Assembly (NCBI RefSeq): GCF_024330105.1
Contig: NZ_JANDHW010000001.1
Span: forward strand, 62,001 to 126,000
Reading direction: 5' to 3'
Origin: Coprobacter tertius
GTDB taxonomy: Bacteria; Bacteroidota; Bacteroidia; Bacteroidales; Coprobacteraceae
Length of the DNA stretch: 64,000 nt
Part shown: positions 25,424 through 32,119 of the stretch, piece after piece
Layout of the letters: every line of letters starts with the position of its first letter
Numbering within the stretch: position 1 is the first letter of the stretch
The notes under the pieces: model-generated
The model's database searches: none
Seen by the model: only the letters and a program-made list of their open reading frames with translations
What the model was told of the DNA's origin: nothing
Made by a program: the position numbers and the translations under genes

Positions 25424-27745
25424 ATGAAACGTTTCTTTTCCATACTGTTTTTTCTCATACCCGTATTTTCCATTTGGGCACAAAATGCCGTGGGAGAGTG
25501 GAGACTGTATCCTACTTATTATACCCCTACCAAAATCGTAGTGACCCCCCATTATAACTACATATTAGCAGACAGTAGCTTTCTATTCTCTTACGATAAA
25601 GATTATGACGAACTCAGGGAACTAAGCAAACAGAATATTCTCAGTGATAATGTCGTAAATAACATGGCGTATAATAACGAAACAGGGTTACTTGTCATAA
25701 CTTATTCAAATGGAAATATCGATTTGTATATAGATAACAGAACTTACAATATTCCTTATATTAAAAATACGTCTTTAAAATCGAAAACAATTAATAATAT
25801 TTCTTTTTACGGAGATCATATTTATTTAGCTACCGATTATGGAATTACAGTCATCGACTCTAAAAAGAAAGAAATAAAAGATACGTATAAATTCGATAAA
25901 AGAATTTTATCTACGTGCATATTCAACGGTAATTTAATGGTCGGTACAGAAGAAGAAACTTTTGCAGGGAAACTTACCGATAATCTTCTCGAAAACAGTA
26001 ATTTCAAATTTTATACCGACGTCAAACCCAAATATATGATATCGAATGAAAAACGTATTATTTTTCTCGATATTTATAATTTGATACATTCCTATGATTC
26101 GGAAAACAACTATTCCTTTTTGGAAAGCGCAAGAGGAACAAAAAAGATATTTCCTTATAAAAAAGGCTTTATAGCCTCTAACGATGAAGGTTTTAAAATT
26201 TATGACGAAAATAATAATCTTACGTATACGGTAAATTACGACGATTATGAAATATTGAAAGGAAATAAAATATTCGATATTTTCATGACCGATAATAAAC
26301 TTACCGCATTAAATGAAAAAGGAATTTACAGTTATACTTTTAAAAACAACGAATTTACATTAGAAAAAAAGATCGATCTTTCCAATAATTCCATCGTCAC
26401 AAAACCTTTTAATCTTTTAGTAAATAACGGTAAATTATATGTAAACAGTTATGGAGTAAACTATATGAATACCGTCCAACGAATAAATGGAAACATATCT
26501 ATTCTCGAAAATGGAAAATGGACGAATATAGATGCAAGAAACGTTCCTGTATTTATTAAAACAGACGAAACATTTTGTACTTTATCCAATATTGCGGTAG
26601 ATCCCGACAATGATAATATTTTCTATGTAGGTACTTGGCTCGAAGGACTCTATAAATTCAACAACAATGAAGTAGAAACAACTTATAATGCCACCAACAG
26701 CCCCATACAACAAAAAAACAACCATTGGCAAACAAATGTAGGAGGAGTAACTTTCGATAAAAATAAAAATTTATGGATGAGTAATTTCGCTGAAAATTCG
26801 AGTTTACTCGTACTCAAAAAAGACGGTACATGGGTTAAGCTGGTTTACAATGATATAAAAGATCAGCAATATATGAACACGATTTTCATTCCCGAAAAAT
26901 CAAAGACAAAATGGATTATAAGCAACCGGGATGTCAACATATCTTACAGAGATAAAATTATGGCTTTAAACGATAACGGCACTCTCGAAAATAATAACGA
27001 TGACATAACCCGTACTTTCACCTCTTTTACCGATCAGGATGGCAAGCAAATCGAAAATCCCAATATTATATGTATTACTGAAGATAAAGACGGTAAATTA
27101 TGGATAGGAACAGATCAGGGACCTATCGTAATTAATAATCCCGATAATTTCAACAGTTCCGATTTTCATTGTAACCGGGTTAAAATAGCCAGAAACGACG
27201 GAACAAATGATGCAGACTTATTACTCTCTAACGATTATATACATCGTATCGCCATCGACGGCGGAAATCGTAAATGGATAGCTACTGCATCATCAGGCGT
27301 CTATCTTCTTAGCGAAGACGGTACCGAAACCATTCAACATTTTACGACGCAAAACAGTCCGTTACCCTCTAATACAGTATATAACATAGCGATCGATCCG
27401 AATAGCGGAGAAGTATACTTTGCCACTACCGAAGGTTTGGCCATGTATCGTTCCGATGCAATCGAACCTAAAGAAGATTTTTCAAATGTATATGCATTTC
27501 CAAATCCTGTAAGACCAGACTTTACCGGATGGATTACAATTACCGGACTACAGGAAAAATCGCTGGTAAAAATTACCGATGTTTCAGGCAACCTTATTTA
27601 TCAAAATTACTCTGAAGGAGGACAACTTGCCTGGAATGGAAGAACTCCGGACGGAAACCGAGTAAAAACAGGAATTTATCTTGTTTTTGCAGCAAACAAA
27701 GAAGGAAAACAGGGTGTTGTAACCAAAATTATGGTGGTAAACTAA
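25424..27745 (+). CDS. porZ: PorZ-like beta-propeller protein of the type IX secretion system
   Basis: PorZ of Porphyromonas is a 776-residue surface component of the T9SS attachment complex that binds anionic lipopolysaccharide. This 773-residue protein shows the same plan: signal peptide MKRFFSILFFLIPVFSIWAQ, two consecutive beta-propellers with PorZ-like opening (VGEWRLYPTYYTPTKI, then YILADSSFLFSYD), repeats such as WIGTDQGPIVINNPDNF and WIATASSGVYLL, and a C-terminal sorting-type beta-sandwich beginning near VYAFPNPVRPDFTG (about 690) and ending GIYLVFAANKEGKQGVVTKIMVVN. The call is by length, layout and domain; individual PorZ residues were not compared. It is flanked by rdgB and a DUF4251-like gene, far from any other T9SS gene in the window. 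Confidence 0.8.
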   Translation: MKRFFSILFFLIPVFSIWAQNAVGEWRLYPTYYTPTKIVVTPHYNYILADSSFLFSYDKDYDELRELSKQNILSDNVVNNMAYNNETGLLVITYSNGNIDLYIDNRTYNIPYIKNTSLKSKTINNISFYGDHIYLATDYGITVIDSKKKEIKDTYKFDKRILSTCIFNGNLMVGTEEETFAGKLTDNLLENSNFKFYTDVKPKYMISNEKRIIFLDIYNLIHSYDSENNYSFLESARGTKKIFPYKKGFIASNDEGFKIYDENNNLTYTVNYDDYEILKGNKIFDIFMTDNKLTALNEKGIYSYTFKNNEFTLEKKIDLSNNSIVTKPFNLLVNNGKLYVNSYGVNYMNTVQRINGNISILENGKWTNIDARNVPVFIKTDETFCTLSNIAVDPDNDNIFYVGTWLEGLYKFNNNEVETTYNATNSPIQQKNNHWQTNVGGVTFDKNKNLWMSNFAENSSLLVLKKDGTWVKLVYNDIKDQQYMNTIFIPEKSKTKWIISNRDVNISYRDKIMALNDNGTLENNNDDITRTFTSFTDQDGKQIENPNIICITEDKDGKLWIGTDQGPIVINNPDNFNSSDFHCNRVKIARNDGTNDADLLLSNDYIHRIAIDGGNRKWIATASSGVYLLSEDGTETIQHFTTQNSPLPSNTVYNIAIDPNSGEVYFATTEGLAMYRSDAIEPKEDFSNVYAFPNPVRPDFTGWITITGLQEKSLVKITDVSGNLIYQNYSEGGQLAWNGRTPDGNRVKTGIYLVFAANKEGKQGVVTKIMVVN

Positions 27746-27758
27746 ATACTTTACATAT

Positions 27759-28244
27759 ATGAAAAAGATACTTTTATATTCGATCCTTTTTCAACTGATT
27801 ATAGGCCTGTCTTTTCCCATAGCGGCACAAGATAAAGAAAACAATACTCCCGAAGAAGAGATTATAAGAAAATCGGTAGAAAATAAAAAATTCAATATTG
27901 CGGTAGATTTTGCCATGCCGGCAAGTATGCCTTCACGCTATTTGACGGGAAATTATTCTTTAATTGTAAATAACGATTCGGTTACAATAGACCTTCCTTA
28001 TTTCGGAGTCGCCTATTCTATGCCTTATGGTGCCGACGGTAGTTTAAAATACAAAGGTCTTTACGAAAACTACAAATCGAAATACAATAAAAAAAAGAAA
28101 CAATTTACCCTTAATTTCATTATAAGAAAACCAGAAGACAGTTATGTCATAACTATAAATATTTGGCTCAACGGAAAAACTGATATTCATATAAGACCTA
28201 ACAACAAACAATCCATATCTTTTACCGGGGAACTGAAAAACTGA
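27759..28244 (+). CDS. DUF4251-like secreted or periplasmic protein
   Basis: A 161-residue protein with signal peptide MKKILLYSILFQLIIGLSFPIAAQ, a charged linker, then a compact beta region with the family-like pattern FAMPASMPSRYLTGNYSLIV, DSVTIDLPYFGVAYSMPYG and FTGELKN. These features resemble DUF4251, a family of Bacteroidetes proteins of about 150-180 residues with no known function. No lipobox is seen, so release into the periplasm is likely. It is 13 bases after porZ and may share its transcript, which could link it to envelope or secretion, but that is inference. Confidence 0.75.
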   Translation: MKKILLYSILFQLIIGLSFPIAAQDKENNTPEEEIIRKSVENKKFNIAVDFAMPASMPSRYLTGNYSLIVNNDSVTIDLPYFGVAYSMPYGADGSLKYKGLYENYKSKYNKKKKQFTLNFIIRKPEDSYVITINIWLNGKTDIHIRPNNKQSISFTGELKN

Positions 28245-28269
28245 TAAGTTATACTTCAATATACATCAA

Positions 28270-28310
28270 AAGGGGAATAAAAGAGTTTTTAAGCGACTTT
28301 TATTCCCCTT
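28270..28310. terminator. bidirectional terminator between DUF4251 and nadA
   Basis: Perfect 14-bp stem AAGGGGAATAAAAG / CTTTTATTCCCCTT with a 13-base loop, between convergent genes ending at 28244 and 28334. Confidence 0.85.
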
Positions 28311-28333
28311 GTATATAATTTATCGTTTTTAAA

Positions 28334-29323
28334 TTATAAGCCCAAACGAGCCGAAATATCGAGCATTCTGCGGATCGGTAACAAAGCTCTCTCTGCAATC
28401 TCCTTTTCTACATTAATTTCAGGCAATTCATATTTCAAACTCAAATATAGTTTTTCAAGCGTATTCAAACGCATAAAATTACACTCGTTACAAGCGCATG
28501 TACTGTCTTCCGGTGGTGCCGGAATAAATACTTTATTGGGATTTTGTTTTTGCATTTCATGTAATATGCCCGATTCGGTAGCGACTATAAAACAATCAGC
28601 TTCTGATTGTGAAGCAAATTTCAATAAAGCCGCAGTAGATCCTATTTTATCCGCCAGCATCAATATAGTTTTTCTGCATTCGGGATGTGCCAGTAACAAA
28701 GCCCCAGGATGTTCATCTTTCAGATCGACGATTTTCTGTAAAGAAAATTGTTCATGTACATGACAAGCTCCATCCCATAACATCATATTTCTACCGGTAA
28801 TACTATTGATGTAATTTCCGAGGTTACGATCCGGACCGAAAATAATCTTTTCGTTTTCCGGAAAACTTTCTACAATCTGACGAGCATTCGAAGAAGTAAC
28901 GACTACATCGGTTACCGCTTTTACTGCAGCACTCGTATTCACATAAGAAATTACCGTATAATCCGGGTGATCGGCTACGAAACGCGAAAAAGCACCAGCT
29001 TCACAACTATCGGCCAGCGAACAGCCGGCATTCAGGTCGGGAACGATCACTTTTTTATCAGGGCACAATATTTTTGCTGTTTCTCCCATAAAATGGACAC
29101 CGCACATAACCAATATACGAGCATCGGTTTTTGCAGCCCATTGAGCCAGTGCCAGACTGTCTCCTACAAAATCGGCGATATCTTGCAATTCACCGTTTTG
29201 ATAATAATGAGCTAATATGACTGCATTTTTTTCTTTTCGCAATCGGTTTATTTCTTTCTTAAGGTCGATACCTTTTTCTATCGGTACATCGACGTATCCT
29301 TTCGAGATATTCACAGCATTCAT
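28334..29323 (-). CDS. nadA: quinolinate synthase A
   Basis: Iron-sulfur enzyme that condenses iminoaspartate with dihydroxyacetone phosphate to quinolinate in de novo NAD synthesis. The 329-residue length fits. Landmarks: AVILAHYYQNGELQDIADFVGDSLALAQ (about residues 34-61), ARILVMCGVHFMGETAKIL (about 68-86; first cluster Cys), NAGCSLADSC, YVNTSAAVKA, IIFGPDRNLGNY, HPECRKTILMLAD (second cluster region) and CACNECNFMRLNTLEKLY (third cluster Cys). Its partner nadB is about 9 kb away at 38528-40099 on the other strand, beyond the candidate origin, so the pair is split in this genome. Confidence 0.96.
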   Translation of the reverse strand: MNAVNISKGYVDVPIEKGIDLKKEINRLRKEKNAVILAHYYQNGELQDIADFVGDSLALAQWAAKTDARILVMCGVHFMGETAKILCPDKKVIVPDLNAGCSLADSCEAGAFSRFVADHPDYTVISYVNTSAAVKAVTDVVVTSSNARQIVESFPENEKIIFGPDRNLGNYINSITGRNMMLWDGACHVHEQFSLQKIVDLKDEHPGALLLAHPECRKTILMLADKIGSTAALLKFASQSEADCFIVATESGILHEMQKQNPNKVFIPAPPEDSTCACNECNFMRLNTLEKLYLSLKYELPEINVEKEIAERALLPIRRMLDISARLGL

Positions 29324-29808
29324 TTATTATTCTTTATTTCCTTTTTAATTAAAAATAAATTTAATAACAACAATAATGACTGTTGAAAGTATTTAAATCT
29401 TTCGGTCTCTTTTCTTGCTTTTAAAGTTATTAATAAAGAGCCTTGCATTATGAGTTATATATAAACAATAGTAATACTTTATAATAAAGCATTTACAGAT
29501 GTTATCTACATATTGTTTATAATGTGCAAAGTTAAAAACTTTCTCATATTAAGTATCTTGATAACTCTTTATTTTGACGTTTATAACTCATGAAATACTT
29601 TTTTAAGTTATCGCATGAAAAGAAAAAATACTTTATCATATATTCGAATATTTTGATATAGCATTTTTATTTCTCTAAAATTTATCAGGAAGTTATACAG
29701 TTTTATTTACTATTTATAAGAAGTTGTCAACAGTTTATTCATACTCTTTTATTTTGTATCTTTGGTGCCTGAATAAAAGATATATACTTTCTTTAAACTA
29801 AGGTAGAA
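29324..29808. other. AT-rich intergenic region, left part of the candidate replication origin
   Basis: 485 bases with no reading frame. It contains DnaA-box-like 9-mers: TTATCTACA (29502-29510), TGTTTATAA (29514-29522, reverse of TTATAAACA) and TTGTCAACA (29724-29732), plus repeated ATAACTC-type words (29453, 29561, 29583). TTGATAACTC at 29558-29567 recurs exactly at 31127-31136. nadA and the SpoU gene point away from it. Confidence 0.45.
29757..29764 (+). promoter_or_regulatory. -7 element of the SpoU methyltransferase promoter
   Basis: TATCTTTG, 45 bases before the ATG at 29809. A weak -33 candidate (TTTA at 29734-29737) lies 19 bases upstream. Confidence 0.5.
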
Positions 29809-30336
29809 ATGGAGAAAAAAACAATTTTTGATCTGAAAAGAATTTCCCCTGAAGAATTTAAAAGAGTTGATAAAATACCTCTTATCGTGATTTTAGATAA
29901 TATTAGAAGTTTAAATAATGTAGGGTCGGTATTTCGTACAGGAGATGCTTTTAGAATAGAGAAAGTTATATTATGCGGAATTACGGCAGTTCCTCCTCAT
30001 CCCGAAATACATAAGACGGCATTGGGAGCAGAAGATAGTGTAATGTGGCACTATGAAGAGAATACCTGTAAAGCTGTTGATGATTTGCAGGAAAAGGGAT
30101 ATGTGGTTTATGCCATAGAGCAGGTAGAAAACAGTATTTTATTAAATGATTTGTCTTTAGACAAAAAGAAAAAATATGCTGTCGTATTAGGTAATGAAGT
30201 AAAAGGAGTACAACAGAAAGTAGTAGATATATGCGATCAGAGTATTGAAATACCGCAATACGGAACCAAACATTCGTTGAATGTGTCGGTGACGGCCGGA
30301 TTGGTAATTTGGGATTTTTTTAAACAATTGGGATAA
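29809..30336 (+). CDS. TrmH/SpoU-family RNA 2'-O-ribose methyltransferase
   Basis: A 175-residue SPOUT-fold methyltransferase. The three family motifs are present: LDNIRSLNNVGSVFRTGDAF (about residues 29-48, motif 1), VVLGNEVKGV (about 126-135, motif 2) and IPQYGTKHSLNVSVTAGLVIWDF (about 148-170, motif 3, with the knotted SAM site). It lacks the N-terminal substrate-binding domain of RlmB, so the target (tRNA or rRNA) is uncertain. It lies at the right of the AT-rich block at 29324-29808 and ends 8 bases before the convergent DUF4294-like gene. Confidence 0.92.
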   Translation: MEKKTIFDLKRISPEEFKRVDKIPLIVILDNIRSLNNVGSVFRTGDAFRIEKVILCGITAVPPHPEIHKTALGAEDSVMWHYEENTCKAVDDLQEKGYVVYAIEQVENSILLNDLSLDKKKKYAVVLGNEVKGVQQKVVDICDQSIEIPQYGTKHSLNVSVTAGLVIWDFFKQLG

Positions 30337-30343
30337 GCATTGT

Positions 30344-30949
30344 TTATAACTGTCCCGATTCTACCAATATACAAATACGCTCAAGCATGGCATCTTTATT
30401 TTCAGGTTCCCATTCTGATTTCAGGCTAACACCGAAAACAGCTCCGAAAGTTTGCCAAAAACCGGCTCTGAATCCTCCTAAAAAGGCTTTTATTAAATCA
30501 TAAGAAGATTGGTTACATTCTCTGTCTATTAATTTAATCAATAATTTTCCTTGTCGGTACGACATTTGTTTTAATACGGGTTTGTATTGTTTAAAAAGAT
30601 CTTTTTCCATTTTTTTTAAATGAGCTTCCCGTTCTTTTTGCGTAGGCAGAGTTTGTATATATTCATACGTTTCTATTAAAGCCGCATGTACGAGTTTGGC
30701 GTAAGGTAATGTTTTTTTTACATCTCTTACGGTTCTCCAGTAATATTCTTCTTCTTTTTTATTTTTAAATTTCATCGGAGGAAAACAATATATAGGTTTC
30801 ATATCTATTACCCATATAGTATCGCCGTTTCCCTGTATAAGATGATAGGAACGGGAATATGCACCGAATCCATATTGTGCTTTCGACTCCTGTGAATATA
30901 AAATACAGAATAAGAAAAGACTATATATTATGAAGATATATTTTTTCAT
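30344..30949 (-). CDS. DUF4294-like exported protein
   Basis: The frame extends to 30997, but the ATG at 30949 gives a clear signal peptide (MKKYIFIIYSLFLFCILYSQESKAQ) and is preferred. The mature part contains DTIWVIDMKPIYCFPPMKFKNKKEEEYYWRTVRDVKKTLPYAKL and a long helical stretch ending in GKLLIKLIDRECNQSSYDLIKAFLGGFRAGFWQ, which resembles DUF4294, a Bacteroidetes family without known function. The single conserved-looking Cys and Gln/Asn-rich end are not assignable to a reaction. It sits between the two AT-rich blocks of the candidate origin, convergent with the SpoU gene. Confidence 0.8.
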   Translation of the reverse strand: MKKYIFIIYSLFLFCILYSQESKAQYGFGAYSRSYHLIQGNGDTIWVIDMKPIYCFPPMKFKNKKEEEYYWRTVRDVKKTLPYAKLVHAALIETYEYIQTLPTQKEREAHLKKMEKDLFKQYKPVLKQMSYRQGKLLIKLIDRECNQSSYDLIKAFLGGFRAGFWQTFGAVFGVSLKSEWEPENKDAMLERICILVESGQL

Positions 30950-31336
30950 TCTATGCAAAATTAGTGTATTCGACTTATTATATAGGGTTTTTTGCATTAT
31001 TTATTATTATCGCATACATTATGCTTATTTTAGAGTATATAAGTTGTTTATAATCATTTGACATTATATTTAATAATATATATAAATATTTTATTTACAG
31101 ATATTTATTATTTTATATATCTATTGTTGATAACTCCATTTTTCTAATTTTTTATTTATGTTGATAATTTAATTGTAAGTTGTTTATAATGGGTTTATTA
31201 TATAAAATAAATAACTAGTTTACAAATAAATAAGTTGTTTATCAACAAATTGATAATGTCGCTTGTTGCTTAATTTATATGTTTTCATACGATCTTTTGT
31301 TTATGAAAGATTAATTTTGTACACGATAAAATTAAG
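30950..31336. other. AT-rich intergenic region with an iteron-like cluster, right part of the candidate origin
   Basis: 387 bases of very AT-rich DNA. Five DnaA-box-like 9-mers lie within about 200 bases: TGTTTATAA (31045-31053), TGTTGATAA (31125-31133 and 31159-31167), TGTTTATAA (31181-31189) and TTATCAACA (31239-31247). All are variants of TTAT(A/C)AACA read on one strand or the other. The 11-mer AAGTTGTTTAT occurs three times, at 31041, 31177 and 31232. A TAATTTTG element at 31312-31319 could be the -7 region of the radical SAM gene. Confidence 0.55.
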
Positions 31337-32119
31337 ATGCAAATGGCAACAATATTATTTGATAAAATAGTTTTCGGGCCTATACACAGTCGTAGATTAG
31401 GTATATCTTTAGGTATAAATTTATTGCCGATAGACGGTAAATGGTGTTCGTTCGATTGTATATATTGTGAGTGTGGATATAATGTTCAGGGAAAAGGTAG
31501 TGGATTACCTCAGCGGAAAGAAGTATACGAAGCTCTTGAAGAAAGATTGAAAAAAATGCATATCGATAATGAAAAACTCGATGTAATAACTTTTGCCGGA
31601 AATGGCGAACCCACCCTTCATCCTCATTTTGCCGAAATTATAGATGATACGATCGAATTACGGAATAAATATTATCCTTCTGCCCGGGTAAGCGTATTGT
31701 CTAATGCAACGCGAATAGATAATAAAGCGGTTTTCGATGCTTTAAATAAAATAGATAATAATATTCTTAAGCTCGATTCGGTTTATGTCGATACGGTACG
31801 TGCGATAGATGTACCTAATTCTCCTGATTTTTCTGTGGATAAGTTGGTGGATAACTTGAAAAAGTTTAACGGTAATCTGATCGTACAGACGATGTTTGTA
31901 AGGGGAGAACATAATGGAAAAGTAGTCGACAATACGACTGAAAAAGAAGTTTCAGGTTGGTTAAACGCACTTAGGGAAATAGCACCGAAACAAGTTATGA
32001 TTTATACCATCGATCGGGAAACTCCGGAAAAAAGTTTAGAGAAAGTATCGCTTGACGAATTGAATTCAATAGCTGAAAGAGTAAAAAAACTAGGATTTGA
32101 AGTATCGGTCGCCGGATAA
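31337..32119 (+). CDS. radical SAM protein
   Basis: A 260-residue radical SAM enzyme: the [4Fe-4S] motif CxxxCxxC is CSFDCIYC (about residues 37-44), after the segment FGPIHSRRLGISLGINLLP. GNGEPTLHPHF (about 96-106) is the SAM-binding GGE-type segment, and SVLSNATRID, VYVDTVRAIDVPNSPDF and IVQTMFVRG continue the barrel. The pattern resembles small radical SAM enzymes of the kind that precede tRNA or cofactor maturation, but the reaction is not assigned. Start at 31337 is accepted; ATG at 31343 (MATILFD) is equally possible. It lies alone to the right of the AT-rich block. Confidence 0.85.
   Translation: MQMATILFDKIVFGPIHSRRLGISLGINLLPIDGKWCSFDCIYCECGYNVQGKGSGLPQRKEVYEALEERLKKMHIDNEKLDVITFAGNGEPTLHPHFAEIIDDTIELRNKYYPSARVSVLSNATRIDNKAVFDALNKIDNNILKLDSVYVDTVRAIDVPNSPDFSVDKLVDNLKKFNGNLIVQTMFVRGEHNGKVVDNTTEKEVSGWLNALREIAPKQVMIYTIDRETPEKSLEKVSLDELNSIAERVKKLGFEVSVAG

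Follow-up and report, generated by a model that had tools for sequence, protein, structure and literature searches.

A very probable chromosomal replication origin between nadA and a radical SAM gene in a Barnesiella/Coprobacter-like member of the Bacteroidales

Genes and box clusters at the locus

The window, i.e., the whole 64 kb stretch of DNA that we analyzed, corresponds to positions 62,001-126,000 of contig 1 of a genome of 3.31 Mb assembled in 28 contigs. Genes follow each other in the order leuS, rdgB, porZ and DUF4251 (all on the plus strand), nadA (minus), trmH (plus), DUF4294 (minus) and a radical SAM gene (plus), and the closest named relatives of the NadA protein are found in Barnesiella (78%). 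Two AT-rich gaps interrupt this array, one of which directly adjoins the ATG start codon of nadA. The features of the region are as follows:

28334-29323, minus strand: nadA (quinolinate synthase), bordering the candidate origin on the left (PF02445, E=7.9e-121)
29324-29808: divergent nadA-trmH gap, candidate core oriC, 21% GC; contains the skew minimum; gap conserved in 69 loci
29324-29362: AT-rich tract beside the trio-like repeat, candidate unwinding element; T/A tract conserved in a 62-row alignment
29363-29380, plus strand: trio-like repeat AAT AAC AAC AAT AAT GAC, a degenerate version of the conserved element GATGATGATRATAG; putative function
29381-29389, minus strand: DnaA-box-like CTTTCAACA, at the alignment position of the conserved TATYAACA box beside the trio-like repeat
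29502-29510, plus strand: DnaA-box-like TTATCTACA, aligned with a conserved box position
29514-29522, minus strand: DnaA-box-like TTATAAACA, facing the 29502 box with a spacing as in several relatives
29526-29534, minus strand: probable -7 element of the nadA promoter, TAACTTTGC, highly conserved; assigned by the Bacteroides promoter consensus
29724-29732, plus strand: DnaA-box-like TTGTCAACA, aligned with the conserved TTATCAACAGG before trmH
29757-29764, plus strand: probable -7 element of the trmH promoter, TATCTTTG, conserved in the alignment; assigned by the Bacteroides promoter consensus
29809-30336, plus strand: trmH-like SpoU RNA methyltransferase gene, between both box clusters (PF00588, E=2.4e-34)
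30344-30997, minus strand: DUF4294 protein gene, between both box clusters (PF14127, E=5.6e-63)
30998-31336: second AT-rich gap; its DnaA-box-like cluster is the densest found in the sampled stretches of the genome
31045-31053, minus strand: TTATAAACA
31091-31099, plus strand: TTATTTACA
31125-31133, minus strand: TTATCAACA
31159-31167, minus strand: TTATCAACA
31181-31189, minus strand: TTATAAACA
31239-31247, plus strand: TTATCAACA
31337-32119, plus strand: radical SAM protein gene, right border (PF04055, E=1.9e-11)

A gene for a PorZ-like type IX secretion protein (25424-27745 of the window) adjoins the candidate origin and is located near the origin in many relatives as well. No parS-like site was detected in the window when up to three mismatches to TGTTTCACGTGAAACA were allowed.

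The DnaA-box-like 9-mers that an earlier note had quoted for this DNA are all present, namely TTATCAACA at 31125, 31159 and 31239, TTATAAACA at 29514, 31045 and 31181, TTATCTACA at 29502 and TTGTCAACA at 29724; an additional minus-strand copy of TTATAAACA at 30341 was missing from its list. The repetition of AAGTTGTTTAT to which it had drawn attention likewise holds, with copies at 31041, 31177 and 31232 (expectation for the window, 0.12). TTATCAACA occurs just three times in the entire 64 kb, while the mean under a second-order Markov model built from the region is 0.04 copies; neither three copies of TTATCAACA nor six of TTATNNACA within about 210 bp arose in any of 5000 simulations under such a model. 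The 9-mers are also enriched here over other AT-rich DNA, a comparison that the note had named as a check on its reading. Among 369 intervals of 300 bp with a GC content below 26%, drawn from 864 kb of the genome, the cluster at 31.0 kb ranks first with six boxes; an interval has 0.44 boxes on average, and the runner-up outside the region has three. A cluster of DnaA boxes above chance and an AT-rich unwinding element beside such boxes are among the features by which an oriC is recognized, and the clustering was found here, with AT-rich tracts as candidates for such an element.

To define the box without any prior motif, we ranked the 9-mers of 69 nadA-trmH gaps against shuffled sequences. The top-ranking 9-mer was TTATCAACA (76 occurrences against 1.17 expected, in 41 gaps), and it is nine times as dense in the gaps as in the noncoding remainder of these loci. 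Its own relatives followed in the ranking, together with GCAAAGTTA, present in 45 of the 69 gaps; GCAAAGTTA matches the -7 promoter element known from Bacteroides and probably marks the nadA promoter. Since the E. coli box TTATCCACA occurs just 11 times in the gaps, A is the preferred base at position 6 of the box in this group.

Box-like sequences were encountered at other places too. Two copies of TTATCAACA lie beside the origin, within the trmH coding sequence, in each of two congeners (L215:6161, 6308; L218:4696, 4843). Elsewhere in the genome, the pair TTATCAACA...TGTTGATAA forms an inverted repeat just after thrC (G000:C8:133,007-133,048; L024:8007-8048), and the same thrC-side inverted repeat is a long perfect palindrome in the closed genome of a congener, G066 (1,655,871-1,656,038; L236:5871-6038). 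We set this candidate aside, since a hairpin that terminates transcription is more probable here than a site that titrates DnaA.

Composition switch in this genome and in relatives

The raw cumulative GC skew of the window reaches its minimum at 29,686, within the nadA-trmH gap. The shift in both gene directions that had been reported from hand counts is borne out at fourfold-degenerate sites, where the skew of plus- and minus-strand genes is -0.24 and -0.20, respectively, to the left of 29,686, and +0.15 and +0.21 to its right. It is negative in every gene from leuS to nadA, zero in DUF4294, and positive in trmH, the radical SAM gene and from SusC onward. A naive two-level fit to all G+C had placed the change point at 22.4 kb because plus-strand genes occupy 22-28 kb; this estimate was dropped once gene strand was corrected for. 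The corrected fit, which uses fourfold sites alone and treats plus- and minus-strand genes separately, gives a change point at 29,800 (3-logL interval 27,600-31,700) with a gain of 68 log units, a resolution too coarse to tell the left block from the right block, which lie 1.5 kb apart.

We sampled the genome in 41 stretches from 14 contigs, amounting to 864 kb. Contig 1 alone passes from negative to positive skew, and it does so at the nadA-trmH locus; no further negative-to-positive switch was found in the 40 other sampled stretches. The other contigs hold one skew sign across their sampled stretches, weakly so near the start of contig C7 and in the middle of contig C3. A single lagging-like to leading-like switch per chromosome, as expected of an oriC, is therefore what the sampled stretches contain. 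The dnaA gene is located on contig 7 at 189.8 kb within a stretch of negative skew, and both stretches sampled from 100 kb on in this contig are negative throughout.

Two relatives with closed or complete chromosomes have their genome-wide skew switch at the same genes. In the closed congener G066 (3.44 Mb), the skew minimum lies at 2,297,452 within that organism's own nadA-trmH gap; the fourfold skew is negative between 0.69 and 2.29 Mb, whereas the arc that starts at 2.30 Mb and ends, past the zero point, at 0.48 Mb is positive, so that the sign returns between 0.48 and 0.69 Mb, where the antipode of the minimum is at 0.575 Mb. Its dnaA gene is found at position 485. In Phocaeicola vulgatus ATCC 8482, the flip occurs in a 21-kb stretch with both trmH and nadA (1.532-1.553 Mb) and has a local skew minimum between these two genes; the reverse change falls between 3.92 and 4.16 Mb, near the antipode at about 4.12 Mb, and dnaA is at base 1. 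The locus is thus not of the dnaA-adjacent type (dnaA-dnaN), with dnaA 1.1 to 1.5 Mb away in these two relatives. When 61 divergent nadA-trmH loci were pooled, the skew moved from -0.118 to +0.145 at the bin boundary of the gap, a step to which the directions of nadA and trmH contribute within 1 kb, while the outer bins with mixed genes keep the sign; the right-side skew exceeds the left-side skew in 59 of the 61 loci. The skew flip across relatives is a consistent and independent placement of the origin.

Composition in three genomes (the window species, G066 and P. vulgatus) thus carries the location. Because the only switch in our sample lies here, the skew of two relatives flips at the same locus, and dnaA is elsewhere in all three genomes, we consider the region 29324-31336 to be, very probably, the chromosomal oriC of this Barnesiella/Coprobacter-like bacterium. 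The earlier note had read it in the same way, and its reading gains support from the sole negative-to-positive switch among the sampled stretches, from the genome-wide switch in both relatives and from the excess of the 9-mers over other AT-rich DNA. We refine it in one respect: the left block, i.e., the nadA-trmH gap, is the best-conserved core, and the right block resembles a second box cluster.

The nadA-trmH gap of P. vulgatus (L102:6842-10000) contains about 2.7 kb of extra DNA and measures 3159 bp vs about 480 bp. In a Prevotella (UBA1705; L170), Alloprevotella tannerae (L162) and a metagenome-assembled Parabacteroides genome (L101), nadA is kept and the element that lies upstream of it in other relatives (see below) is absent; the origin may therefore have been relocated in these three.

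The repeat beside nadA and the DnaA protein

On the nadA side of most gaps, a box is followed by a GC-rich spacer and then by a repeat of 3 nt that resembles the DnaA-trio. In an alignment of 62 gaps, the box strand reads TATYAACA GSCT ATY ATC AYC ATC A, and an A on the box strand (T on the trio strand) occupies five successive third positions in 62, 62, 61, 58 and 62 of the 62 rows. The opposite strand reads 3'-TAR-5', not 3'-GAT-5'. The spacer of the best run measures 4 nt in 40 of 62 rows, and the NTN run at a spacer of 3-4 averages 2.89 as compared with 1.24 at other boxes of these gaps (p=1e-18, with rows that are not independent of each other). With a position weight matrix of the element, none of 3.1 million background positions scored more than 15 bits, and the leave-one-out median of the element itself is 37.9. 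The frame of the repeat is ambiguous: with a spacer of 2 nt, the first trio would read 3'-GAT-5'.

Near-exact copies of the element (0-1 mismatch) were recovered from 13 of 149 genomes that sample the whole order and from none of the genomes of other orders of the class. An order-wide element, for which we had considered a 20-nt pattern, was dropped; with two mismatches the pattern matches background, and since near-exact copies are confined to these 13 of 149 genomes, the strict form is not order-wide.

In the window species the element is degenerate. It scores -16.2 with the matrix, carries one indel, and the boxes of the left gap are weak. Its copy, AAT AAC AAC AAT AAT GAC followed by TGTTGAAAG, retains a central A in each triplet; most of the triplets have lost the G of the conserved GAT, and there is a shift in spacing. 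Three alignable congeners keep GATGATGATAATA or a close form of it, which in one is GATGATAATAATA. Six NAN triplets directly follow the box in the window, an arrangement that falls under the general BUS rule (a box, a spacer of 0-16 nt and at least three trios with a central A), although this rule is easily satisfied by chance in AT-rich DNA, where shuffled sequences average 2.4 triplets. The stricter definition, i.e., a 3'-GAT-5' consensus together with the DnaA residues N187, I190, R202 and E228, does not describe this locus.

In the B. subtilis DnaA protein, the G of the trio is bonded by Arg202 and Glu228 and the A by Asn187, while the third base lies between Ile190 and Ile193; growth suffers when any one of these five residues is changed to alanine (PMC10721633). 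We aligned seven DnaA proteins of Bacteroidales and found N187 replaced by V/T, I190 by T, R202 by I/M and E228 by T/N/A, with V/I at position 193. E. coli, Thermotoga and Aquifex possess Q/N, V, L/M, K/R and E at positions 187, 190, 193, 202 and 228, respectively, the K at 202 being that of E. coli. Other Bacteroidota have V or I at 190, mostly keep E228 outside the class, and have lost R202. Since these other Bacteroidota lack R202, yet keep V/I at 190 and for the most part E228, the pocket has eroded stepwise down the lineage; as R202 is absent already outside the order, the changes in pocket and repeat are imperfectly coupled. The DnaA protein of the window species (L002:973-2370) additionally carries H in place of N196, a residue that contacts the third base in B. 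subtilis DnaA, and L in place of R194. Both residues are kept in G066 and in most of the other aligned Bacteroidales.

From these data, the following course of initiation can be proposed. DnaA, the product of a distant gene, would bind TTATCAACA-type boxes of the nadA-trmH gap, and in this lineage possibly those of the second cluster upstream of DUF4294 as well. From the nadA-side box it would extend as an oligomer onto the trinucleotide repeat and open the AT-rich tract that abuts the start codon of nadA, and replication forks would depart in both directions. Because the repeat reads 3'-TAR-5' and the residues that grip G and A are replaced, the opening code and its initiator probably diverged together. 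The window species, with N196->H and an altered repeat, suggests a joint change of DnaA and repeat; the shifts in question are GAT to AAC/AAT in the repeat and N196->H and R194->L in the DnaA loop. That a changed code for single-strand opening, built on 3'-TAR-5' and a DnaA without R202, E228 and N187, is here caught with co-evolution still in progress is a reading that we advance tentatively and rate as rather less likely than not.

Alternative readings and known origins

The strongest box cluster of the window (31,045-31,247) lies upstream of DUF4294, 1.5 kb from the nadA-side element. It is possible, but in our view rather doubtful, that this second cluster is the functional core in the window species and the nadA-trmH gap a decaying ancestral part. 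Three perfect TTATCAACA and three more boxes there contrast with the degenerate boxes and repeat of the left gap, and in relatives TTATYAACA is found upstream of DUF4294 at 1.10 per kb vs 0.32 in other noncoding DNA (32 of 61 loci). In the congeners, however, the element of the nadA gap is well preserved and there are fewer boxes on the right, and the skew minimum falls into the left gap both in the window and in a congener. Since the DNA upstream of DUF4294 is enriched in relatives and the second cluster is the stronger one in the window, the distribution of boxes suggests that a two-part origin around trmH-DUF4294 is plausible.

Alternatively, the origin could be located here, with the boxes serving mainly as DnaA-controlled sites of a bidirectional nadA/trmH promoter and the repeat as part of the nadA leader. 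Conserved promoter-like sequences (TAACTTTGC and TATCTTTG) among the boxes and the position of the repeat between the nadA promoter and the start codon speak for this unlikely reading. The repeat, however, matches no riboswitch or other Rfam family, an upstream reading frame over it was rejected since an ATG frame exists in just 2 of 36 gaps tested, and the skew switches at the locus in three genomes; where trmH has been separated from nadA in some relatives, the element stays with nadA, which is compatible with both views. A recent inversion or island boundary in place of an origin, as the naive change point at 22.4 kb and the fragmentary assembly might suggest, is highly improbable and for practical purposes refuted by the relatives, because the skew switches at the same genes in P. 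vulgatus and in the closed congener, both of which switch back about half a chromosome further on, and the switch recurs in the 61 pooled loci.

The reading we prefer, an oriC with its best-conserved core in the nadA-trmH gap, can be set beside known systems. Origins of this kind are routinely predicted with DoriC and Ori-Finder. Bipartite origins, in which two box clusters are parted by coding DNA, are known from Helicobacter pylori and B. subtilis; two clusters are present here as well, with trmH and DUF4294 rather than dnaA as the spacer, and a bipartite function is putative. According to the portion of the literature on Prevotella intermedia OMA14 considered here, its oriC was predicted with Ori-Finder and E. 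coli boxes, and Bacteroidetes origins are, by way of DoriC, stated to lie commonly far from dnaA (PMC4755523). Our locus resembles these origins in its skew switch, its multiple boxes and its distant dnaA; that portion of the P. intermedia account mentions neither the genes on either side nor a TTATCAACA consensus or an unwinding element (PMC4755523), whereas we describe the nadA-trmH locus together with a box consensus derived de novo and a repeat that is conserved. The BUS of B. subtilis consists of DnaA-boxes, a short GC-rich spacer and DnaA-trios (PMC8287927). The arrangement here shares with it the box, the GC-rich spacer, the trio strand whose 3' side faces the box, and the AT-rich tract (PMC8287927, PMC10721633); it differs in a repeat of 3'-TAR-5' vs 3'-GAT-5', in a DnaA without equivalents of Asn187, Arg202 and Glu228, and in an origin away from dnaA. 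In the open-licence literature, we found no paper that describes the nadA-trmH locus as oriC, the box consensus or the variant repeat. The distance of Bacteroidetes origins from dnaA has already been published; the pairing of a variant trio with a variant pocket we offer as a hypothesis.

With a precisely located origin, growth rates in a major group of gut bacteria can be estimated from read depth relative to a fixed point, and such an origin is useful for building replicating vectors. If repeat and pocket have indeed diverged together, these bacteria would offer a natural test of the DnaA-trio as a true recognition code, and would show an essential protein and its DNA site changing in step.
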